46,934 nucleotides of DNA from Spirochaetaceae bacterium. GTDB taxonomy: Bacteria; Spirochaetota; Spirochaetia; Treponematales; Rectinemataceae. The notes under the pieces are model-generated. The model searched no databases, was not told where the DNA came from, and was given only the letters and a program-made list of their open reading frames with translations. How positions within the stretch are numbered: position 1 is the first letter of the stretch; the number at the start of each line of letters is the position of its first letter. This document shows positions 8,001-20,139 of the stretch, in pieces. A program made the position numbers and the translations under genes. The DNA lies in the NCBI GenBank assembly GCA_025355995.1, contig JANXYQ010000003.1, forward strand, positions 1-46,934, written 5' to 3'.

Positions 8001-8097
8001 TGCCTCCTCCCGGGTATAGCAATATTTCGTATCTCAGAGCGCAATGCGTCGAATGGCCATAATGAGAATAGCGAGGCATCATGCATCGGGGGCTACG

Positions 8098-9363
8098 ATG
8101 ACCAATCTTATCATCACTTCGGAAGAACGCAATATTTTACGTGAGCTCGCCCGGAAGCAGGCCGACTACGCGTCCCTGCCGATCATGGCCGAACGCAGGG
8201 CCCTGTGGTACCGCCACAACGAGCTCCGCAGCGACAGGCCCATGCTGCAGGTCGAACCCTGGACTTTCGAGCGGGACATCCTCCCTCCCCTGCGCTGCCG
8301 GTCCGAGGCCGCCGCGGCTATCGAGCTGCAGATCCAGCGCATGATCCTAAACCACGAGAGGATCGACGACGACCGCGTGGTCAGCCCCTGCTTCGACATC
8401 GAGTGGCGACGGACCTTCAAGCTATTCGGGCTGGAGAAAGAGACGGTCCACGCGATAGATTCCGCCGGCCGCGACCTGGGCTACCAGCACAAGCACCCGA
8501 TCGCCGACCTGGCCGCGGACCTGCCCTCCCTGGGCGCCACGGTGCGAGGCGTGGACCGGGAGGGAACCCTCGCGTGGAAGGCCTTCGTCGAGGAGCAGAT
8601 CGGCGACCTCCTGCCGGTCCGCCTGGCCAACGGCTCTCCCGGAGTCTGCTTGACCCAGGACCTCGTCCACTTCATGGGGATGGAGGCGATGTTCCTCGCC
8701 ATGATGGACTGCCCCGAGGCCTTCCACGCAGTCATGGACAGGATGAGCGCCGACCACCTGGCGTGGCTCCTCGAGCAGGAGCGGGACGGCCTGTGGTTCC
8801 TCAACAACGGCCACGACTGGCTGGCCCAGGGCTCGAGCGCCTTCACCAGCGAGCTCCCGCGCCAGGGCTGGAAGGAAGGGGACCCCGTCGCCTTGGCCGA
8901 CCTGTGGGGCTTCATGGACTCCCAGGAGACGGTGGCCATCTCTCCCTCCATGTACGGCGAGTTCATATTCCCCTACTATCGCCGCATCGCCGAGCGCTTC
9001 GGCCTGCTGTCCTACGGTTGCTGCGAGCCCGTGCACCCGATCTGGAAGGACTACCTCTCCACCTTGCCGAACCTCCGGAAGCTTTCGATCTCGCCCTGGT
9101 GCGACGAGGCCTTCATGGGCGAGGCGCTGCGGGGCGGCCGGACCATCTTCCATCGCAAGCCCAATCCTCTGGCCATCGGCCAGGAGGGCCCGCTGGACGA
9201 GGAGGCCCTCGCCGCCGCCTTCAGGGAGACGCTGGGCCATGCCCGGGGCTGCGTCCTGGAATTCTCCTTCCGCGACATCTATAGCCTGGGCGGCCGCCCC
9301 GAGAAGGCCCGCCTCATGGTGCGGATCCTGCGCGAGCAGATCGACAAGTATTGGCGGGGCTGA
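8098..9363 (+). CDS. URO-D-fold, methyltransferase-like protein (large 420-residue subgroup)
   Basis: A 421-residue member of the uroporphyrinogen decarboxylase superfamily, in the branch often found beside corrinoid methyltransferase genes and not expected to make haem. It is a clear paralogue of the gene at 21717; the two share an early ERRALWYRHNELRSDRPM-like block, GCCEP and the PNLRKLSISPW block. It lacks the His-x-Cys-Gly zinc motif of MtaA/MtbA; the double Cys in YGCCEPV sits near the expected metal site instead. I start it at 8098 (MTNLII, with CGGGGGC upstream); an in-frame ATG at 8044 would add 18 residues. Its neighbour is a divergent AraC regulator. I infer methyl transfer between a substrate and a corrinoid protein. 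Its last 50 bases overlap the broken URO-D-fold gene antisense. Confidence 0.75.
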   Translation: MTNLIITSEERNILRELARKQADYASLPIMAERRALWYRHNELRSDRPMLQVEPWTFERDILPPLRCRSEAAAAIELQIQRMILNHERIDDDRVVSPCFDIEWRRTFKLFGLEKETVHAIDSAGRDLGYQHKHPIADLAADLPSLGATVRGVDREGTLAWKAFVEEQIGDLLPVRLANGSPGVCLTQDLVHFMGMEAMFLAMMDCPEAFHAVMDRMSADHLAWLLEQERDGLWFLNNGHDWLAQGSSAFTSELPRQGWKEGDPVALADLWGFMDSQETVAISPSMYGEFIFPYYRRIAERFGLLSYGCCEPVHPIWKDYLSTLPNLRKLSISPWCDEAFMGEALRGGRTIFHRKPNPLAIGQEGPLDEEALAAAFRETLGHARGCVLEFSFRDIYSLGGRPEKARLMVRILREQIDKYWRG

Positions 9364-10298
9364 GGGCCGAAGGGCCGCGGGCGAAGTCCCTCATGGCGAG
9401 TATGTTGGCCCTCGGCGTGCCTCGGGGAATCTCGCAGCCCGCGCCCACGATCCAGGCGCGGCCCGCCGCCGAGGACAGCCCGTCGAGGGCGGCCGCTATC
9501 GTGGCCGGGCTGCCGTCGCGCACGGCGCGCACCGGGTCGAGGTTGCCGCTGAAGGCCTGCGCCGGTCCCGCGGCCTCCCTCGCGGCGGCGAGGTCGACCA
9601 TCGAGTCCACGTCGATCAGGTCGTAGCCGAGATCCTTCGTCATCGGCAGGAGGGGCCCGGAGTTGCCGCAGATGTGGAGCCGGGCGAGGGCGCCGGCGCC
9701 GTGGATGGCAGCCACGTAACGCCGGTGCCGCTCGAGGACGAACTCGCCGAAGAGCCCGGGGCCGATGAGGGAGGATGCGGCGTCGCCCACTCCGACGAGG
9801 CCCGCCCCGGCGGCGACCTGGGCGAGGGCGAAGGCTATCTCCATCTCGGCCGCGAAGTCGAGGAGCTCGCTAGCGAATGCGGGGTCGTCGTAGAAGTCCA
9901 TCATGAAGCGCGACCGCCTCGAGGCGGTTGGACATGCGGCGGCCCGAGGCGGGGTCGGGCCGCCGCAGGCTCAGCAGCGCCGACTTGTCCTCGAGGAGGG
10001 AACGCGCGTCGTCGAGGGAGGCGGGCTGGTCCTCCGGCGCGATGACGGCCGCCCCGAGGTCCGAGGCCTCGACCGCCGGGTCCGAGATCACGGACAGGTG
10101 GTCCGCGCCGAAGGCCTCGGCGAATGCGAGCTGGCCGCGCGCCTGGACCCGCCAGTCGGTCGCGTAGTCGCGGTATCGGGCGCCGATCTCGTCGGCGGCT
10201 AGGCTCATCGAGATGGGCATGAAGGCGCGAGAGTCCGTCCAGCCTCCGGCGAGGGTCTCGAGGATACGCCGGCTGCCGCTCAACTCCGCATTCGCCAT
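9314..10298 (-). pseudogene. Broken MtaA/CmuA-like URO-D-fold methyltransferase gene
   Basis: Two reading frames encode the two ends of one URO-D/MtaA-type protein. The N-terminal piece (10298 to about 9904) runs from MANAELSGSRRILETLAGGW to GRRMSNRLEAV. The C-terminal piece (about 9904 to 9314) runs from MMDFYDDPAFASELL through RLHICGNSGPLL and FSGNLDPV to GCEIPRGTP. At the junction near 9900-9908 the frame shifts by one. The stretch of roughly 40-50 residues that family members carry between these two blocks is also missing, which points to an out-of-frame internal deletion rather than a one-base slip. The C-terminal piece keeps His-x-Cys-Gly but has Ser where MtaA has its second zinc Cys. 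It sits at the end of the ABC transporter/chemoreceptor operon. An assembly error cannot be excluded. Confidence 0.75.
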
Positions 10299-10327
10299 GG
10301 CTCGATCATATACGCCACGGCCCAAGC

Positions 10328-12739
10328 CTACCATTGCGCGGGCAGGAAGGCGCTGAGGTTTTCCTTTGTCACGATGTCATAGGGCAGGTAGATCATGGGA
10401 GGGAGCTCGAGGCCGCTGAACCAGTCTACCGCGGCCTTCATCGCGAGGGCTCCGTCCCCCTCGGGCGGCTGGTAGTGGATGGAGTCCAGGATGCCCTTGC
10501 CGACCAGGCCCAGGCCGATCGAGCAGGCTCCCGCCGCCGAGACGATCAGGTCGCGCCTGCCCGTCCTCCCGATGGCGTCCGCGATGCCCAGGGCGGTGTC
10601 CCCGTCGTCCGCCGCGTACACCCCGGCCAGGGCGGCCCCGTGCTTCGCCAACCAGCCTTCGACGAGCCGGGCCGTCTCGCCGCGGTCGAAGCGGCTGTGG
10701 GCGGCCTCGAGGAGCCTCATGCCCGGAGCCGCCTTGGCGAGCTCGGTGACGAAGGCGTAGGTCCTTGAGTAGAACGCGCTCGACCCAGGCACGTGCTGCA
10801 CGATGGCGTAGCCGCCCTTCCCGCCGGCGCGCTCCGCGAAGCGGCGCGCGAGGGCCCTGGTCTGCGCCCAGTCGTCCGGGCCCGTCCAGGCGAGGCAGTA
10901 CCGGAAGCAGCCCGGGTCGGGAATCGTGTTGGCGAAGATCAAGGGAAGGCCGGCGCGATAGGCGATCTCGGCGCTGTCGGACCCTCCCACGGCGCTCGCC
11001 GCAAGGATGACGAGGAGATCGGGCCTCGAGCGGACCGCCTCGGTGACGCGGCGACGCTCGATGTCGTGATCGAAGCCGGAATGGCTGAAGACCGTCTCCA
11101 CCCCGAAGGCCCGGCCCACCTTCTCCATGCCCCGGCGGAACGCGTCGTAATAGGGATGCTCACCGGCGAGGACGCAGGCGATGCGCTTGCCGAGGGGGCC
11201 CTCCCCCCGCGACTCGGGCTGGGGCAGCTTCTCCGTTCCCCAGCCCGCGTACTCATACTCGTACCATCTACGCTCGTCTGTTTCGGGCAGGGACTCGGGG
11301 TTCGCGGGACGTGGCGGGATGGCCTTCGCGACCGCGGTCCAGGCGACGAGCGCCCGCCCGTCCGAGGCTTTCAGCGAATCCGTGTCCATCGTCTTGAAGC
11401 GGCCGACCTCGGCCTCGAGGTCGGCCACGGCCGACGCGTTCTCGACCCCAAGCCTGGAGAGCTCCGCGATCGACGTATTGATCTGTCGGGCGCCAGCCGC
11501 CATCTCGGCTATGGCGTCCGCGTTTTCCCTCGACAGGCCCGAGGCGCCGGACACGATGCGCGACACCGAAGCGGCCCGCTCGGCGACCACGCTGGCCTTC
11601 GACCGGAGGGAGGCGCCGGACTCGCGCAGCTCCCCGACTCGCTCCTCGAGCCGCGAGGCGTCGCCGACCAGGCGGGAGATCCCCTCGCCCATCCCTCCCA
11701 TGCTCGCGGCCACGGCGCTGATCCCCGACCCGAGCGAGGCGAAGGCCCGGTCGGAGCGCTCGGCGAGCGCCGAGGCCTCGGCCGCGCGCGAGCCCGCCGC
11801 GGCGAGCGACGCGCCGATGGTCTTCGTGTTGGCCGCCGTGGAGACCGCGAGGTTCCGGATCTCGCCGGCCACGACGGCGAAGCCCCTGCCCCTATCGCCC
11901 GCATGGGCGGCCTCTATGGCGGCGTTCATTGCGAGGAGGTTGGTCCTCTCCGTGATGTCCTCGATGACTCCCGCCACGAGCCGAACGCTCGCGACCGAGG
12001 CCGCGATCTGCTTGAGGGTGTCGTTCGCCGCCGCTAGGGCGCCGCGGCTCTCCCCGGCCGCCCTTTCCAGGTCCTCGGCTTGGGCCCTCCTCTCGCGCAG
12101 CTCCGCGTCGACCGCGGCGGCCGAGCTCGACATCTCCGACAGGGCGCGGGCGGACGACTCGAGGGCGGCTGACTGGGCCTCCACTCCGCCCGCGGAGGCC
12201 GAGGCCGCCTCGCGGATGGCGGAAAGCTCCTTCTCCGCCTCCTCCATGTCGTCCCGGAGCCTGGCTCCGTTCGCCATGAGGGAATCCATCGAGGCCGACA
12301 TCTCGTTCATAGTCGCGGAGAGCTCGGTGGCCTCGGCCGCGAGGGACTCGCTCCCCGAGGCGTTGCGATCGGAGATCTCCTTGATGCGCTTGACCACGTT
12401 GTGGAGCTTGGCCGTGAAGGCGTTGAAGCCCCGGGCCACCGACCCGGCCTCGCTCGAGGAGCGCACGGGCAACCTGGAGACGAGGTCGGCCTCGCCCCTC
12501 GCGGACTCGCCGATCCCCGCCGCGAGGGCGCGCAGCTCCCTTCCCGGGCCGAGGGCGAGATAGGCGGCGGAGGCGGCGGAGAAGGCCGCCGACAAGGCGC
12601 TGGCCAGGGCCGCCGCCGCGAAGGCCGAGGCGCCGAAAGCGGAAGGCGAGAGGAGGATGGCCAGCGAGGCCAGGGAGAGGAGGGCGGGCCCGCCGACCAG
12701 CAGGACCGCCCTCGATCCGAAAGAAACCTTTCGAGCCAT
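10328..12739 (-). CDS. Chemoreceptor (MCP) fused to a sugar-binding-protein domain
   Basis: An 803-residue protein. Residues 1-10 are basic. Two adjacent hydrophobic segments follow (about 11-31 and 36-63) with only a few residues between, so no periplasmic sensor is present. A HAMP-like stretch is at about 65-120. The MCP signalling coiled coil runs about 125-450, with the conserved hairpin tip [19 protein letters not shown] at 266-284. From about 453 to the end (bases 10331-11383) the sequence is homologous to the binding protein encoded next door at 12812-14011. Shared blocks are [25 protein letters not shown] and a final QW. The fused copy begins just after the equivalent of the signal-peptide region, and the topology places it in the cytoplasm. 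A GGAGG lies 5 bases before the ATG. I infer a chemoreceptor for the imported sugar. Confidence 0.88.
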
Positions 12740-12811: not shown

Positions 12812-14011
12812 TTACCACTGGGGCGGGTAGAACTTGTCCACGTCCGCCTTGGTGATGATGTGCTGGGCGAGGTTCTGGCGGAGGGGCATCGCCTTCCCGT
12901 TGAACCAATCGGCGGCGTACTTGACGGCCAGGGCGCCGTCGCCCTCCGCGGTCTGGTAGGTGATGCCGAAGAGCTTGCCTTCCTTCACGAGGTCCATGCC
13001 CTGCTTGGAGTTGCCGGCGGCCACGACGACGACGTCGGTGCGCCCGGCCTTCTCGAGGGCCTGGAAGATGCCGAGGGACTGGGCGGAGTCGTCGGAGGCG
13101 CAGATGCCCTTGAGGTCCTTGCCGTACTTGGTGAGCCAGTCGGAGACGAGCTGCATCGTGGTGTTGGCGTCGAAGGTCGCCGGGGTCGGCGACGCCTTCT
13201 CGAGGGTCTTGACCTCGGGGGCGTAGGTGGCGAGCTCGGAGATCGGGCCGAAGGAGCGCGCGAAGTAGGGCGATCCGCCGGGGGCGTGCTGCACGTAGGC
13301 TACGCCGAGGGTCTTGGCGCCGGGATTCTGCTTGCGCATCTGGTCGGCCCAGGCCTTGGCGAGGAGGCGGAACTGGCCGAAGTCGTCCGGCCCGGTCCAG
13401 CCGAGGCTGTAGTTGAGCGCGGCGGCGTCGGGCAGGGTGTTGAACATGTGGAGCGGGATCCCCGCTTGGTTGATCTTGCGGGCCTGCTGGACCGCGCCCT
13501 TGGCGTCGAGCGGGATGAGGAGGATCATGTCGGGCTTCTCGTTGATGGCCTGGTCGATCATCTGGTCCTGTACGTCCTTGACCCAGTTCGGGTCGAGGAC
13601 CTTGAAGCTCATCTTGTAGGCGTCGGCGACTTTCTTGGCGCCGCTGGTGCAGGCGGTGGTCCAGGGATGGCTGCCGTGGACGATGAAGATGATCTTCTTG
13701 CCGATCGCCCCGTCGGCCGGGGACTTGGGCAGGTTAGTCGGAGTCACGTTCCAGCCCGCCCACTCCATGTCGTACCAGTGGAGGGGATCGGTCTCGGGAA
13801 GCGCGCTGGGATCGGCGGGCCTGGTCGGCACCTTGCGATTGTCGGTCGACGGGGCCAGCAGGAGCTGGTTGTCTGCAGACTTAAGAACGCTCGTGTCTAC
13901 CTTCAGGGACGCGGCGAGATTGGCTTTTTGGGCAGCCGTCTGGCTGAAGCCGGGCATGGCCACGAGCGCCACGAGGGCGAGCGCGACTGCGAGGATAGCG
14001 GCTCTTTTCAT
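12812..14011 (-). CDS. Periplasmic sugar-binding protein of the ABC transporter
   Basis: A 399-residue substrate-binding protein of the ribose/galactose-binding type (periplasmic binding protein, Rossmann-like lobes). A signal peptide occupies about residues 1-24 (a hydrophobic run ending AMPGFSQ) without a lipobox, so it should be soluble in the periplasm. The mature protein starts with a roughly 60-residue extension (RPADPSALPETDPLHWYDMEW) before the first lobe (GKKIIFIVHGSHPWTTACTSG). Later blocks are MFNTLPDAAALNYSLGWTGPDD, LKGICASDDSAQSLGIFQAL and TYQTAEGDGALAVKY. The start has a perfect AAGGAGG. It lies between the permease genes and the MCP fusion that carries a copy of it. The substrate is unknown; a pentose, hexose or methylated sugar is plausible. 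Confidence 0.9.
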   Translation of the reverse strand: MKRAAILAVALALVALVAMPGFSQTAAQKANLAASLKVDTSVLKSADNQLLLAPSTDNRKVPTRPADPSALPETDPLHWYDMEWAGWNVTPTNLPKSPADGAIGKKIIFIVHGSHPWTTACTSGAKKVADAYKMSFKVLDPNWVKDVQDQMIDQAINEKPDMILLIPLDAKGAVQQARKINQAGIPLHMFNTLPDAAALNYSLGWTGPDDFGQFRLLAKAWADQMRKQNPGAKTLGVAYVQHAPGGSPYFARSFGPISELATYAPEVKTLEKASPTPATFDANTTMQLVSDWLTKYGKDLKGICASDDSAQSLGIFQALEKAGRTDVVVVAAGNSKQGMDLVKEGKLFGITYQTAEGDGALAVKYAADWFNGKAMPLRQNLAQHIITKADVDKFYPPQW

Positions 14012-14115: not shown

Positions 14116-15147
14116 TTAGGCCTTTTCCTTGGCCATCCGCCTCGCCTCCAGCTCCTTCATGAGCTCGGGCCTACGGCCCAGGTCATTCTCGTGCTTGTAG
14201 GTCGCGTAGGCCTCGTAGAGGACGACGTAGGCCAGGATGAGGCCCGCGATGAAGATCTTGACCTCGTTGCCGAGGCCGAAGAGGATGACGCCAGTGTAGA
14301 GCATCTCGAGCGTGAATATGGCGACGACGCTGCGCAGGACGCCGCCCTTGCCCCCCGACATCGCGGTGCCGCCGATGATCGTGGCCGATATGACGTACAT
14401 GAGGGAGTTCTCTCCCAGCTTGAGGGTGGCCGCCGTGGATTCCAGCACCGAGAGGACGCCGCCGATGGCCGCCCCGACGCCCGAGAGGACGAAGGCCGCG
14501 ACGGTGTACTTGTCGGTGGGTATGCCCGCCAGCCAGGCGGTGTTCCGGTTGCCACCGACCAGGTAGAAGTTCCGTCCCGAGCGCGTGCGCCTCAGGTAGG
14601 CCTCCATGGCCAGCACGAGAACGAGGCTGATGAGTATTCGCGGCGTCAGGAGGGGGAGGAGGCTCTTCCCGAGGAAATCCGAGATCACGAAGGCGTCCGG
14701 CGTCGAGACGCTGATCGAGTTGCCTCCCGAGAATTGGTAGATCGCGCCTTGCAGGACTGTCATCGTGCCGAGGGTGACGATGAAGGAGTTGATCTTGGCC
14801 TTGGCAACGAGGAGGCCGTTCAAGACCCCCACGAGGCCGCCGGCCACGACGGCGACCGCGATCGAGCCCGCGTAGCCGAGGGCGGGCTTGAGGCCGAGCG
14901 CGAGCACTCCCGCGAAGGTGATCACAGTGCCGATGGACAGGTCGAGCTGGCCGCAGATCATCACCACGGTGAAGCCGATCGCCACGCAGGCGTTCATCGA
15001 GATGACCTTGAGGATGGACGTGATGTTGAACACGTTGAAGAAGCGCGGCGCGAACAAGGACATGAAGGCGAACACCAGGGCGAAGAGGATGTAGATGCGG
15101 TACTTGTCCCCGAAGGCGAGGAGGGAGTTCTTTCCTAATTTACGCAT
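14116..15147 (-). CDS. Sugar ABC transporter permease (RbsC-like), second of two
   Basis: A 343-residue polytopic membrane protein with about 8-10 hydrophobic segments. It has the RbsC-family signatures CGQLDLSIGTVITFAGVLAL, NGLLVAKAKINSFIVTLGTMTVLQG and ATIIGGTAMSGGKGGVLRS. It forms the transport channel with the permease upstream and the double ATPase. I start it at 15147 (MRKLGKNS), where the ATG overlaps the stop of the upstream permease (ATGCGTAA), implying coupled translation. An in-frame ATG at 15180 would add 11 residues that lie within the upstream gene. The C-terminus carries a charged cytoplasmic tail of about 30 residues. Confidence 0.9.
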   Translation of the reverse strand: MRKLGKNSLLAFGDKYRIYILFALVFAFMSLFAPRFFNVFNITSILKVISMNACVAIGFTVVMICGQLDLSIGTVITFAGVLALGLKPALGYAGSIAVAVVAGGLVGVLNGLLVAKAKINSFIVTLGTMTVLQGAIYQFSGGNSISVSTPDAFVISDFLGKSLLPLLTPRILISLVLVLAMEAYLRRTRSGRNFYLVGGNRNTAWLAGIPTDKYTVAAFVLSGVGAAIGGVLSVLESTAATLKLGENSLMYVISATIIGGTAMSGGKGGVLRSVVAIFTLEMLYTGVILFGLGNEVKIFIAGLILAYVVLYEAYATYKHENDLGRRPELMKELEARRMAKEKA

Positions 15148-16153
15148 CGTCGCGCCCCAGGCTCCGCAAGGATTTGGCATTTATCCCGACGACCACGATG
15201 AAGATCGCGCCTCGGATCATGTCCTGGGAGAAAGTGCCGACTCCCAGGAGGGTGAGTACGTTGTTCAGCAGCCCGATGATCAGGGAGCCGCCGAGCACCC
15301 CGAGGATGGAGCCTCGGCCGCCCGCGAGCGTCATGCCGCCTATCACGATGGCCGTGACCGCCTTGAAGTCGTAGCCCGCCCCGTTGTACCAGGCGCCGAC
15401 CCTCGACAGCGAGGTGACGGCCAGCCCAGCGATCGTCGCCGTCAGGGCCGTGAGCACGAAGGCGGTCGTGATGACGCGCTCGACGCTTATCCCCGAGAAT
15501 TTCGCCGCGCGCAGGCTCGAGCCCGTGAGCTTCAGCTTCACGCCGAAGGAGGTCTTGGTCATCACGAACTGGCCCGCGACGACCAGGACGAGGAGCATCA
15601 CGACGGGCAGCCCGATCAGGTTGAAGAAGCGCAGCCTGTAGATGTTATCGAAGAGCTCGACGGCCTTCTGCCCCGATCCGCGCATGTCGGGATAGATCTG
15701 CTTGTTGACCCAGATCAGCCTGATGACGCCCATCGTCACGTAGTTGACCGCGAGGGTCCAGATGATCGGATTCGCCTTGAGCTTGCCCACGACGAAGCCG
15801 TTCATCAGGCCGATGAGGAGGCCGATGGCCAGGGCTACGATCACCGCGGGGATGAAACCGTAGCGCAGCAGCTCGATGCAGACGTAGCCGGTGAAGCCCA
15901 TCGTGGTCGGGACGGACATGTCGGCGAAATGGCCGGAATAGGTGACGAAAGCCATGCCGACGGCGACGATCCCCACGAGGGCCGCCGCGTCCACGATGTT
16001 AAGCATGTTCTGGATCGTGAGGAAGCCCCGGATGATCCCGGTAGCCTGGAGCAGCGCCCCGACCGCGAGGAACAAGGCCGCGATGCCGTAGACGCCCGCG
16101 GCGCTCACGAGCCGCCCTACCGAGCTCGAGCCCAAGGAGCGATCGTCCGCCAT
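15140..16153 (-). CDS. Sugar ABC transporter permease (RbsC-like), first of two
   Basis: A 337-residue polytopic membrane protein of the ribose/xylose permease family, with MAFVTYSGHFADMSVPTTMGF in place of the usual GGIDLSVG-type loop and AVTAIVIGGMTLAGGRGSILGVLGG near the C-terminus. The start at 16153 (MADDRS) overlaps the ATPase stop by one base (TAATG) and has GGAGG about 4 bases upstream. A longer in-frame extension to 16435 is Arg-rich and lies inside the ATPase gene, so I reject it. Together with 14116-15147 it makes a heterodimeric permease. The less canonical substrate loop may reflect an unusual substrate. Confidence 0.9.
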   Translation of the reverse strand: MADDRSLGSSSVGRLVSAAGVYGIAALFLAVGALLQATGIIRGFLTIQNMLNIVDAAALVGIVAVGMAFVTYSGHFADMSVPTTMGFTGYVCIELLRYGFIPAVIVALAIGLLIGLMNGFVVGKLKANPIIWTLAVNYVTMGVIRLIWVNKQIYPDMRGSGQKAVELFDNIYRLRFFNLIGLPVVMLLVLVVAGQFVMTKTSFGVKLKLTGSSLRAAKFSGISVERVITTAFVLTALTATIAGLAVTSLSRVGAWYNGAGYDFKAVTAIVIGGMTLAGGRGSILGVLGGSLIIGLLNNVLTLLGVGTFSQDMIRGAIFIVVVGINAKSLRSLGRDDA

Positions 16154-17694
16154 TAGGCTCCTCCCTCGGCGCCGAGGGCGCCGTTCGCGGCGAGCAGGAG
16201 GCTTTCCTCGCTGCATTCGCCGAAGCCCATTTCCCTGGTGAAGTGTCCCTTGCGCATTATCATCACCCGGTCGGAGAGGCCGACGAGCTCTGGCAGGTCG
16301 GAGGAAATCAGGAGCACGGTGCAGCCCTCCCTCGCGAGCTTCTCTATCGAAGAATGGATGGTCATCTTGGCGCCGATGTCCACGCCGCGGGTGGGCTCGT
16401 CGAGGATGAGCACCTTGGGCTTGCTCGCGAGCCACTTGGCCAGGAGGACCTTCTGCTGGTTCCCGCCCGACAGGTTGCCCACCGTCCGCTCGGGGTCCGG
16501 GGGGTAGATATCGAGCTCCCCGATCAGCTCGGCGGCCAGGGGCGCGCCCTTGGCCTTCGAGAAGACCGAGCCCGAGGAGAGCCGGTCCACGATGGGCGCC
16601 ATGATGTTCTCGCCCACGGTGAGCCTCAGGGCCAGGCCCTCGTGCTTGCGGTCCTCGGTGAGGTAGGCGATGCCGCGGGAGAGGGCGTCGGCCATCGTGC
16701 CGCTCCTCACCTCGGCGCCGTCGAGCTCGATGCGCCCCTCGTCGGCCCTGTCCAGGCCGGCGAGCACCTTCGCGAGCTCGCTGCGGCCCGCGCCCGAGAG
16801 GCCGCAGATGCCGAGGGTCTCGCCGCGCCTCGCCTCGAAGGAGACGTCGTGGAAGAAGCCGAAGCGGGAGAGGCCGCTCACCTTGAGCCTGGTCTCGCCA
16901 ATCTTGCGCTCGTCGCGCTTGTAGAATTCCTTGACCGAGCGGCCGACCATCATCTGGACGATCTCCTCGCGGGTGACCTCGCCGATCGGCTTGGTCGCGA
17001 TCTTCTTGCCGTCGCGCATGACGGTCACCCTGTCCGCGATCCGGAAGATTTCCGGAAGGTGGTGGGATATGTAGACGACGGCGATGCCGCGGTTCTTGAG
17101 CTGGACGATGATCTGGAAGAGGCGCTCGACCTCCTCCCTCGACAGGGCGCTGGTCGGCTCGTCCATCACGAGGATGCAGGGGCCGTTGCCGAGGACCTTC
17201 GCGATCTCCACGAGCTGGGCCTCGTGCTGGCTGATGTCCTCTATGGGGAGCTCGGGGTCGAGGTCGAGGCCGACGTGGGCGAGCAGCCCCTTGGCCTGCG
17301 ATCGCGCTCGCGCCTTGTCGAGGAGGGGGCCCTTCCGGGGCAGGCGGCCGGCGAGGAGGTTCTCTATGATGCTGATGGGCCTGGCGAGGCTCAGCTCTTG
17401 GTAGATCATCCCGATGCCGTACTTCTTGGCCTGGGTCGGCGAATGGAGCTTGACCTCCTTGCCGTTGATGCAGATTTGCCCCGTATAGTCGTCGAAGGAG
17501 CCGGCGAGCATCTTCATTAGGGTGGATTTGCCCGCGCCGTTCTCGCCCACCAGGGCGTGGACCTCTCCCGCGTACACCTCGAAGCTCACGTCGTCCACGG
17601 CAATCGTGCCCGGGAAGCGCTTGCTCACGCGCTTCATCTCGAGGGCGAGCCCTATCTCCCGTTCTTCCAAAATGAGCTCCTCATCTCTTTCCAT
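16153..17694 (-). CDS. Sugar ABC transporter ATPase with two nucleotide-binding domains (RbsA/XylG-like)
   Basis: A 513-residue CUT2-type ATPase that powers sugar import. Domain 1 (about residues 15-250) has Walker A GENGAGKST, an altered signature DISQHEAQLVEIAK and Walker B ILVMDEPTSAL. Domain 2 (about 265-505) has a degenerate Walker A (GLSGAGRSE), the signature NLSGGNQQKV and Walker B VLILDEPTRGVD. One degenerate second site is normal in this family. I start it at 17694 (MERDEE), overlapping the preceding URO-D-fold gene by 14 bases. No strong ribosome binding site precedes that ATG, so coupling from the upstream gene is likely; an internal Met at codon 20 is the alternative. Confidence 0.92.
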   Translation of the reverse strand: MERDEELILEEREIGLALEMKRVSKRFPGTIAVDDVSFEVYAGEVHALVGENGAGKSTLMKMLAGSFDDYTGQICINGKEVKLHSPTQAKKYGIGMIYQELSLARPISIIENLLAGRLPRKGPLLDKARARSQAKGLLAHVGLDLDPELPIEDISQHEAQLVEIAKVLGNGPCILVMDEPTSALSREEVERLFQIIVQLKNRGIAVVYISHHLPEIFRIADRVTVMRDGKKIATKPIGEVTREEIVQMMVGRSVKEFYKRDERKIGETRLKVSGLSRFGFFHDVSFEARRGETLGICGLSGAGRSELAKVLAGLDRADEGRIELDGAEVRSGTMADALSRGIAYLTEDRKHEGLALRLTVGENIMAPIVDRLSSGSVFSKAKGAPLAAELIGELDIYPPDPERTVGNLSGGNQQKVLLAKWLASKPKVLILDEPTRGVDIGAKMTIHSSIEKLAREGCTVLLISSDLPELVGLSDRVMIMRKGHFTREMGFGECSEESLLLAANGALGAEGGA

Positions 17695-18988
17695 TGAACT
17701 CGGCGACCGCGTCGAACATGGCCACCACGTTGCGGGCCGGAACGTCCGGCATGATGTTGTGCACCGTGTTGAACACGAAGCCCCCGTCCCTGGAGAGGAG
17801 GGCGAGCCGCTCGAGGACCTGGGCCCGCACATCCGCGGGTGTCCCGTCCTTGAGGACGGTGCGGTTCTCGACCCCGCCGCCCCAGAACGTCATATCGGCG
17901 CCGAACTCCCGTTTCAGCCGCTCGGGCTCCATGTCCCTGGCGCTGGTCTGCACGGGGTTGAGGATGTCGTAGCCCGCCTCGATGAGGTCGGGGATGACCG
18001 CGTAGATCGAGCCGCAGGAGTGGAGGAAGGTCTTCATCGAGCTGTGGGCGTGCACGTAGTCGCAGAGGATCCTGTGCCTGGGCTTGAACACGCGGCGGTA
18101 GATCTCGGGGTCCATGAACGGGCCGCCCTCGTGGCCGAGGTCGTCGCCGAAGCGCAGGACGTCGGCCACGTCGCCCACGGCCTCGCAGACCTTCGCGAGG
18201 GTCGCGAGGTGGCTCTCCATGAGGGCGTCCAGCATCCTCGTCACCTGGTCCTCGTCCATGAGGAGGTCGACGAGGAAATTGTCGATGCGGCGGAGGAAGG
18301 TGCCCCACTCGAAGAGGTTGCAGCCGACGACGATCATCAGGGCGCGGTCGGTCCTGGCCCTGAGGGCGAGGGCCCTCGCGCGCAGGTCTGCCCAGAAACT
18401 ACCCTCGCCCGCGCGGTCCCAGGGCGAGTGGACCAGGGCGGACCAGAGCACCTTGCCCATGGCCGCGGGAAGCAGCCTGTAATCCGCCGGGTAGCCGTCC
18501 TCGTAGGGGAAGCAGCGCTCGTCGTAGAAGGTCGCGCCCTGGGGCCGCCGGGCGATGAGGGTCCCGTCGGCGTGGTAGACGAAGAAGTCGTCCCCCTTCC
18601 GGACGGGCTTGAACCAGGCAGGATAGAGATAGGAGCTGCCGTCCGGCATCTCGAGCCCGGCCCAGTCCTCGTCCTTGTCGTTGAAGGCGCGGCCGACGTC
18701 GACGACGTCGATGCCGAGGCGATCGAGCAGCCAGTCCTCGGGCTGGGCCAGCTCCTGCACGACGTCGTAGACGCGGGGCCGGGAATCGTGCGCGTTTGGG
18801 CCGCCGGCCAGGCCGTCCCGAGAGTCCAGCTCGCGCACGAGCGCGGTATACCCCAGGGCTGAGATGCCGGAGCTCGGCGTGCTGCCTAGGTCGACGGGCA
18901 CGCGGTCGCCCTCGCGATGGGCGATCGCCGCGAGGACGCGCTCCCGGGAGGTCAGGCCCCGCCCCCGGGTAGCTCGGGGTCGTCCCAT
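17681..18988 (-). CDS. URO-D-fold methyltransferase-like protein
   Basis: A 435-residue URO-D-superfamily protein. The N-terminal LTSRERVLAAIAHREGDRVPVDLG is the usual family opening; later come FLHSCGSIYAVIPDLIEAG and MTFWGGGVENRTVL. The His-x-Cys-Gly motif is present but the second Cys expected near the end is replaced by Gly (WGGGV), so metal binding would differ from MtaA. The gene starts inside the preceding one. An ATG at 18988 has an AGGGA almost touching it. A CTG at 18955 sits exactly where other members have Met (xTSRERV) and overlaps the upstream stop as CTGA, so it may be the true start (424 residues). It precedes the ABC ATPase with a 14-base overlap, tying it to sugar uptake. 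Confidence 0.78.
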   Translation of the reverse strand: MGRPRATRGRGLTSRERVLAAIAHREGDRVPVDLGSTPSSGISALGYTALVRELDSRDGLAGGPNAHDSRPRVYDVVQELAQPEDWLLDRLGIDVVDVGRAFNDKDEDWAGLEMPDGSSYLYPAWFKPVRKGDDFFVYHADGTLIARRPQGATFYDERCFPYEDGYPADYRLLPAAMGKVLWSALVHSPWDRAGEGSFWADLRARALALRARTDRALMIVVGCNLFEWGTFLRRIDNFLVDLLMDEDQVTRMLDALMESHLATLAKVCEAVGDVADVLRFGDDLGHEGGPFMDPEIYRRVFKPRHRILCDYVHAHSSMKTFLHSCGSIYAVIPDLIEAGYDILNPVQTSARDMEPERLKREFGADMTFWGGGVENRTVLKDGTPADVRAQVLERLALLSRDGGFVFNTVHNIMPDVPARNVVAMFDAVAEFNGKR

Positions 18989-20139
18989 TTCCCTAGCTCG
19001 AGCGGATAGGTCCCGTGCTTTCGCAGGAGATTGAGCACGAACTCGTAGCGCTCGGCCGACACGTTGCTGGGAACCGAGTGGTCCGACTGGACGAGGTAGC
19101 CGCCGCCCTTCGCGGCGTTCAGCTTGCGCATGACCTGGGCCTCGAGTTCGGGGAGGCTGTCGTTGGCCCAGGCGAGGGCGTCGATGTTGCCGCAGAAACC
19201 CATCCTGTGGCCGTGCTTCTTGCGCAGCTCCACGACGTCGAGGCCGGACTTGGCCTCGAGGGGATTGTATGAGTCGAGCCCGATCTCGATGAAGTCCTCG
19301 TAGATCTCGCTCGCGTTGCCGCAGCCGTGGTAGATGACGGGCAGGCCCGCGCCGTGGCAGACCCTGATCTGCTCGGCCACAATGGGCTTGAAGTGCTCGC
19401 GCCACATGGCCGGCGAGAAAAGCATGCCGTTGCGATAGGCCACGTCGCCCCAAACCACCATCCCCGCGAGCATCCCGTCGGCGGCCTTGATCTGGGCCTT
19501 CGTCATCTCGACGACGAATTCGCCGATGCGCCTGACGAAGGCGCCGAGCTCGTCGGGGTAGAGCCCGAGCCACATCAGGACGTTCTCGGTGCCGACCACC
19601 CGCCAGACGTACTCGTGTCCCTCGCAGATGGAGCCGTAGACCGGGAAGTCCTCGTAGTAGGATTTCACGCGGTCGATCCAGGCGGGGATGTCCCGGCTGA
19701 TCACGTCCCCGATGCCGTTGAGCTGGTCGTCCCCGCGCTTGAAGAAGCGGCGGTCGTCCCAGGGATCGTCGAAGCGGAAGGCGGACATCTTCTCGAGGTC
19801 GTTTGTATCGAAGCTCTCGAAGTAGGGCATCTGCGTGCCGAGCTTCTTGCGGATGGTCGCCTCGAAGCCGGTTTTGAGGATAACGTCCTCCTCCGTCTCC
19901 TTGATGACCGTGAAGTTCTTGATGTGCGGGTCCATGTTGGGGGTCACGCATACCCAATCCAGGTCGTAGTGCCGGTAGATGTCCGCGTCCGCGGCGAGCC
20001 CCAGCTCCTTCCTCCAGCGCGAGATGAAGGTCGACCAATAGAAATCCGACAGGGGGAGCCTATCGCCCTCCTCGTGGCGGAGCGCCTTGTTCAGGCGATC
20101 GAGCTTGGCTAGGCAGTTCGCCGTCCGTTCGAGCTTCAC
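18952..20139 (-). CDS. URO-D-fold methyltransferase-like protein
   Basis: A 395-residue URO-D-superfamily protein. The barrel carries the full metal-site pattern: His-x-Cys-Gly in IYHGCGNASEIYEDFIEIG and a second Cys in GFCGNIDALAW, as in MtaA/MtbA-type methyltransferases whose zinc activates a thiol. Other landmarks are GDRLPLSDFYWS near the start and VWGDVAYRNGMLFSP. The start codon is GTG with AAGGAGAG 6 bases upstream. It follows the mutarotase-like gene by 34 bases and overlaps the next URO-D-fold gene, so it is the second gene of the transporter operon. The exact reaction is unknown; methyl transfer to or from a corrinoid or thiol carrier is my inference. Confidence 0.8.
   Translation of the reverse strand: MKLERTANCLAKLDRLNKALRHEEGDRLPLSDFYWSTFISRWRKELGLAADADIYRHYDLDWVCVTPNMDPHIKNFTVIKETEEDVILKTGFEATIRKKLGTQMPYFESFDTNDLEKMSAFRFDDPWDDRRFFKRGDDQLNGIGDVISRDIPAWIDRVKSYYEDFPVYGSICEGHEYVWRVVGTENVLMWLGLYPDELGAFVRRIGEFVVEMTKAQIKAADGMLAGMVVWGDVAYRNGMLFSPAMWREHFKPIVAEQIRVCHGAGLPVIYHGCGNASEIYEDFIEIGLDSYNPLEAKSGLDVVELRKKHGHRMGFCGNIDALAWANDSLPELEAQVMRKLNAAKGGGYLVQSDHSVPSNVSAERYEFVLNLLRKHGTYPLELGKWDDPELPGGGA

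Follow-up and report, generated by a model that had tools for sequence, protein, structure and literature searches.

Most chemoreceptors detect their ligands on the outer side of the membrane; where a receptor responds to metabolism, the input is mostly redox, energy state or phosphotransfer. The binding proteins RbsB and MglB (PDB 2dri and 2gbp), which serve chemotaxis, exist as periplasmic proteins in their own right and dock on the periplasmic domain of a receptor (Trg). A precedent for a binding-protein fold at work in the cytoplasm is provided by E. coli regulators of the XylR type, in which an N-terminal PBP/LacI-like domain is joined to an AraC DNA-binding domain and the output is transcription. 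An SBP fold is also found covalently joined to a signaling protein in BT1754 (PDB 2x7x), a hybrid two-component system whose fructose-binding sensor is N-terminal and periplasmic and whose output is that of a histidine kinase. Finally, chemoreceptors with a C-terminal ligand-binding domain (LBD) are a recognized but poorly characterized subfamily (Ortega and Krell 2020, PMC7390727), in which no fewer than 17 types of LBD are recorded in Pfam, the commonest being CZB, a small zinc-binding domain.

Here we describe a chemoreceptor encoded in a stretch of 46,934 nucleotides (the window; contig JANXYQ010000003.1 of the Spirochaetaceae bacterium assembly GCA_025355995.1), in which a binding-protein (BP) domain follows the MCP signaling domain. 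The gene (10328–12739, minus strand, as are all parts of the receptor given below) is a single open reading frame of 803 amino acids with an ATG start and no internal stop. Two Pfam domains score well above their cutoffs in the protein, MCPsignal at residues 223–334 (78.4 bits, cutoff 34.6) and Peripla_BP_4 at residues 526–773 (83.4 bits, cutoff 35.1), while a HAMP-like region at residues 69–113 (12401–12535) scores 22.2 bits, just below the cutoff of 25. The first membrane helix (residues 12–30; 12650–12706) is clear in the hydropathy profile and corresponds to helix 7–30 of the full-length AF2 model. The second (residues 39–63; 12551–12625) is Ala-rich and is a helix in the model; it lies below the hydropathy threshold in this receptor and is a clear hydrophobic segment in the homologues L010, L011, L084 and L085. 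A long antiparallel hairpin, the signaling domain, is modeled at residues 97–445 (11405–12451; helices 97–279 and 281–445) with the BP domain straight after it, although confidence in the model is low over the coiled coil, with pLDDT values of 52–60 at the tip. The tip itself (residues 266–282; 11894–11944) is intact in the window receptor and nearly invariant among MCP-BP proteins. The original prediction, which had been made from this DNA alone and called for a single frame with two closely spaced membrane segments, an MCP domain with an intact hairpin tip and then a binding protein, is thus borne out. The BP part begins with an extension specific to its family (residues 449–514, SDG..L..PPRP..P..LPETD..W..EYAGW; 11198–11395), which lies outside the coverage of the PDB matches, and continues as a two-lobed SBP domain (residues 515–803; 10331–11197).

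This layout places the window receptor in the C-terminal-LBD subfamily as that subfamily is defined in PMC7390727, since its LBD comes after the signaling domain with no membrane segment between them. As in CZB receptors, the sensor would be cytoplasmic; unlike the small CZB domain described there, it is a two-lobed SBP fold of 290 residues. A description of an MCP with a C-terminal Peripla_BP or SBP domain was not found in the open-access literature. The earlier suggestion that no receptor of this layout had been described is only partly right: the layout class is known, and it is for the hinged SBP-fold sensor that no description was found in that literature. The receptor resembles BT1754, which its BP domain matches in both sequence and fold, in the covalent attachment of an SBP fold to a signaling protein, and differs from it in the position, compartment and output of the parts. 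With the XylR type it shares a binding-protein fold working in the cytoplasm, but its output is that of an MCP and its BP domain is C-terminal. An AraC DNA-binding domain is absent from it and is present in sister BP-AraC proteins (L035, for example), which have the same BP-then-AraC order as XylR. A CheR-binding pentapeptide (W at position 2, F at 5, acidic) is likewise absent from the C-terminus of the receptor, which reads LPAQW; the possibility that this end acts as one was rejected because free SBPs that never meet CheR also end in QW. The genome encodes six CheW-domain stretches and has three CheR matches.

No signal peptide was found on the fused BP domain, which follows the MCP helix directly without a hydrophobic segment. 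The 130 residues before the BP domain include a hydrophobic segment in 36 of 39 free family members and in 18 of 22 that are fused at their N-terminus, mostly to permeases, but in no MCP-BP protein. The BP-AraC proteins, the nearest functional class, must be cytoplasmic because they bind DNA. Taken together with the layout of the AF2 model, these observations support a cytoplasmic location for the BP domain of the window receptor, in line with the prediction of a covalent, C-terminal, cytoplasmic sensor without a signal peptide. Since the two arms of the hairpin are of similar length around the tip (residue 276), the domain would be expected close to the membrane, next to HAMP and the membrane-proximal end of the hairpin.

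The receptor gene belongs to a set of genes transcribed in the same direction. Upstream, on the minus strand, are a gene for an MtaA/CmuA-like protein of the URO-D family (18952–20139; Pfam URO-D, with an NCBIfam MtaA-like match below cutoff), an ABC ATPase with two ABC_tran stretches (16153–17832), two CUT2-type permeases with BPD_transp_2 domains (14116–15180 and 15140–16435) and the free periplasmic SBP of the transporter, which has a signal peptide and a Peripla_BP_4 domain (12812–14011). Downstream, a further URO-D family gene (9314–10334, minus strand) overlaps the stop codon of the receptor. It is split by a frameshift into two overlapping frames (9870–10334 and 9314–9904) that both match URO-D, and is either a pseudogene or the product of a sequencing error. 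On the opposite strand, 8044–9363 encodes a protein of 439 residues with no Pfam or NCBIfam match, homologues of which recur near such transporters in several phyla. The fused domain and the adjacent free SBP share 37–38% identity over about 380 residues (E 1e-79 to 5e-81), a likeness that is not due to chance and confirms that the two are homologous. The motifs that had first drawn attention to the pair (PPRP..P..LPETD, WTGPDD, EGDGALA and the C-terminal QW) are real; however, they are conserved across a large family rather than being private to these two genes.

Members of this family, recognizable by their long conserved N-terminal extension (SDG..L ... PPRP..P..LPETD..HWYD.EYAGW), were found in four settings, and the extension is kept in all of them: free SBPs with signal peptides, permeases joined to a BP domain through a helix, BP-AraC regulators and the MCP fusions. 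The permease fusions, in which an extra membrane helix connects the permease to its own binding protein (BPD_transp_2 - TM - BP; L039, L043, L045, L047–L049, L051–L053, L059–L063 and L066–L068), occur in Hydrogenedentes, Planctomycetes, Verrucomicrobia, Kiritimatiellae and others. The XylR-like BP-AraC regulators (L012, L013, L035, L040–L042, L044, L058, L065, L071, L073, L077, L081, L082, L104 and others) often lie beside transporter and URO-D genes in spirochaetes. It is about an even bet that these settings represent one module serving a single solute system in four forms: as a free periplasmic protein, as a domain tethered to the permease, and as the fused sensor of an AraC regulator and of a chemoreceptor. 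Through homologous pockets, of which two are intracellular, the same molecule would then inform uptake, gene expression and swimming, and chemotaxis would be coupled to the cytosolic nutrient pool by direct binding to an SBP fold.

The structure predicted for the fused domain is that of a complete binding protein. Its AF2 model (pLDDT 94.4, pTM 0.89) matches the ribose-binding protein 2ioy with a VIA Z score of 32.6 and an rmsd of 2.3 over 273 residues. Pocket positions in the fused and free window proteins were assigned by alignment to 2ioy, with the ribose-contacting residues of RbsB as reference. Nine of the 11 residues are identical (HYYNTRFDAGQ in the fused domain, HWTNTRFDAGQ in the free SBP), compared with 38% overall (P 0.004); the two that differ are aromatic positions, Y/Y in the receptor versus W/T. 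This agreement makes it likely, judging from sequence, that the two domains bind the same or a related ligand, although it does not prove it, as pockets are usually conserved in such families. In the MCP-BP proteins of two other genomes (G416 and G498), the pocket is clearly altered. The equivalents of R141, F164 and Q235 are retained in both window proteins, while the ribose-type D89, R90 and D215 are replaced by N, T and G, the last of which is invariant in the family. The contacts are therefore probably not ribose-like. In this respect, as well as in being covalent and cytoplasmic, the receptor's BP domain differs from RbsB and MglB, whose fold and service to chemotaxis it otherwise shares. 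URO-D superfamily genes, some of them MtaA/CmuA-like below cutoff, flank most of the transporter and BP-AraC loci examined; the free SBP in Moorella (stamsii/mulderi) lies near genes for L-fucose isomerase and a class II aldolase, and the one in L056 has genes for a GHMP kinase and a nucleotidyl transferase nearby. That the solute is a methylated or deoxy sugar can be offered as a reasonable guess but no more. An account of URO-D-like methyltransferase clusters (PMC10418091) mentions neither SBPs nor chemotaxis.

We favor, with somewhat better than even confidence, the view that the window protein is a transmembrane chemoreceptor that senses from within the cell, through the BP domain placed after its hairpin, the solute that the neighboring CUT2 transporter brings in. 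At the level of sequence, this view draws on the order of the domains, the lack of any membrane segment ahead of the BP domain, the complete predicted fold and the largely retained pocket. The transporter, with its free SBP, two permeases and ATPase, would import the solute, and the cytoplasmic domain would bind it or a closely related one after import, whereupon its lobes would close. Closure could alter how the C-terminal helix and HAMP are packed, thereby shifting CheA activity through the usual CheW/CheA array, for which CheW genes are present in the genome. Swimming would then follow uptake rather than the outside concentration. Of the earlier proposal that the receptor reads imported sugar, the sensing of an imported solute remains plausible, while "sugar" is unproven for a pocket without D89, R90 and D215. 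Cells with such a receptor can probably direct their swimming by substances that are already inside. If this is true, a cytoplasmic hinged binding protein serves on a chemoreceptor as a direct and specific sensor of an imported nutrient, and taxis towards a chemical becomes separable from taxis towards what the cell can take up.

Uptake sensing via a CUT2 transporter is not universal among genomes with MCP-BP proteins, as about half of them lack that transporter family. An exported family member was not seen in 6 of the 13 genomes, one of which is ~100% complete and another 99%, and in most genomes the receptor gene is not beside a transporter, so the ligand there must be either brought in by a different importer or an internal metabolite. 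These genomes lend weight to an alternative that we regard as unlikely yet worth serious consideration, namely that the BP domain senses some other internal molecule, such as a catabolic intermediate, rather than the solute of the neighboring transporter. The substitutions at the two aromatic positions and the greater variation in other MCP-BP pockets fit this alternative, and the URO-D family enzymes at most transporter loci suggest that the solute is processed. On the other hand, the pocket match with the free SBP in the window and the linkage of receptor and transporter genes in two genomes, that of the window (G000) and G001, argue for the imported solute itself.

That same adjacency, along with the membrane-proximal attachment in the AF2 model, could be taken to mean that the BP domain serves for docking or is coupled to transport, reporting the activity of the ABC transporter by contact at the membrane and not by binding free solute. 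We consider this improbable: the same domain occurs in a soluble protein (L143, which has no membrane segment across its whole frame) and in genomes without the transporter, its pocket is largely retained, and the free SBPs of ABC importers are established to meet the permease on its outer rather than its cytoplasmic side.

A phylogenetic analysis of 94 BP domains bears on where the sensor came from. A branch with 100/100 support separates the exported domains, free and permease-fused alike, from the AraC-fused and MCP-fused ones, without exception. The free SBP of the window lies deep within the exported clade, with 86% identity to that of G012, and forcing it into one clade with the fused domain makes the tree 118 log units worse (AU p 4.4e-6). 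The neighboring SBP gene is thus not the source of the fused domain. A recent duplication in place followed by fusion, which had been proposed as the simplest origin and is suggested by the adjacency of the genes and their 38% identity, is rejected by both results, and MCP-BP proteins also occur in families without an adjacent SBP. Instead, the receptor's BP module probably goes back to an ancient group of cytoplasmic BP sensors shared with the BP-AraC regulators. The 15 MCP-fused BP domains are not monophyletic in the best tree, and a single clade is not rejected (AU p 0.44). In a tree of the MCP halves, every fusion falls in one group (support 98) separate from six ordinary MCPs, a small comparison set; the row L101_-0_492 in that tree is the G001 fusion ended by the locus edge, and L143_+2_683 is an ordinary neighboring MCP. 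A single old fusion is compatible with the trees of both halves and is the simplest account, not a proven one. When the BP tree was rooted with distant RbsB-like proteins, the root fell among the fastest-evolving MCP rows, where long-branch attraction is likely, and no direction of evolution is drawn for this reason.

A search carried through the family, order, class and phylum of the window identified 13 more single-frame MCP-BP proteins with the same domain order in 12 other Spirochaetota genomes of the window's class (G001, G009, G351, G247, G275, G345, G157, G409, G416, G498, G507 and G533, which has two). The fusion in the window is therefore genuine and not an accident of assembly: the MAG-like assembly in 138 contigs and the frameshifted URO-D gene next door might suggest that an MCP and an SBP had been joined artificially, a scenario with a negligible chance of being right given that the G001 homologue, with a BP half 70% identical to the window's, is in the same frame and that 12 further fusions come from independent assemblies. 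Sampling of other phyla detected no MCP-BP protein outside the Spirochaetota in a contig scan of 44 loci or in 299 and 241 genomes of two other phyla. Two MCP-BP proteins (L088 and L107) are interrupted at contig ends. Three others (L138:3616–6789, plus strand; L141:5096–7972, minus; L142:7315–10245, minus) also carry a large periplasmic region near the N-terminus, flanked by two membrane helices, and are apparently dual sensors of inside and outside. Together with the soluble L143 and the transporter and regulator relatives, they make the MCP-BP family a comparative system for how an SBP fold may drive a signaling hairpin from its far end. A degenerate relative of 621 residues (L144:2595–4457, plus strand) retains membrane helices, a HAMP-like region and the BP domain and has lost the signaling tip.
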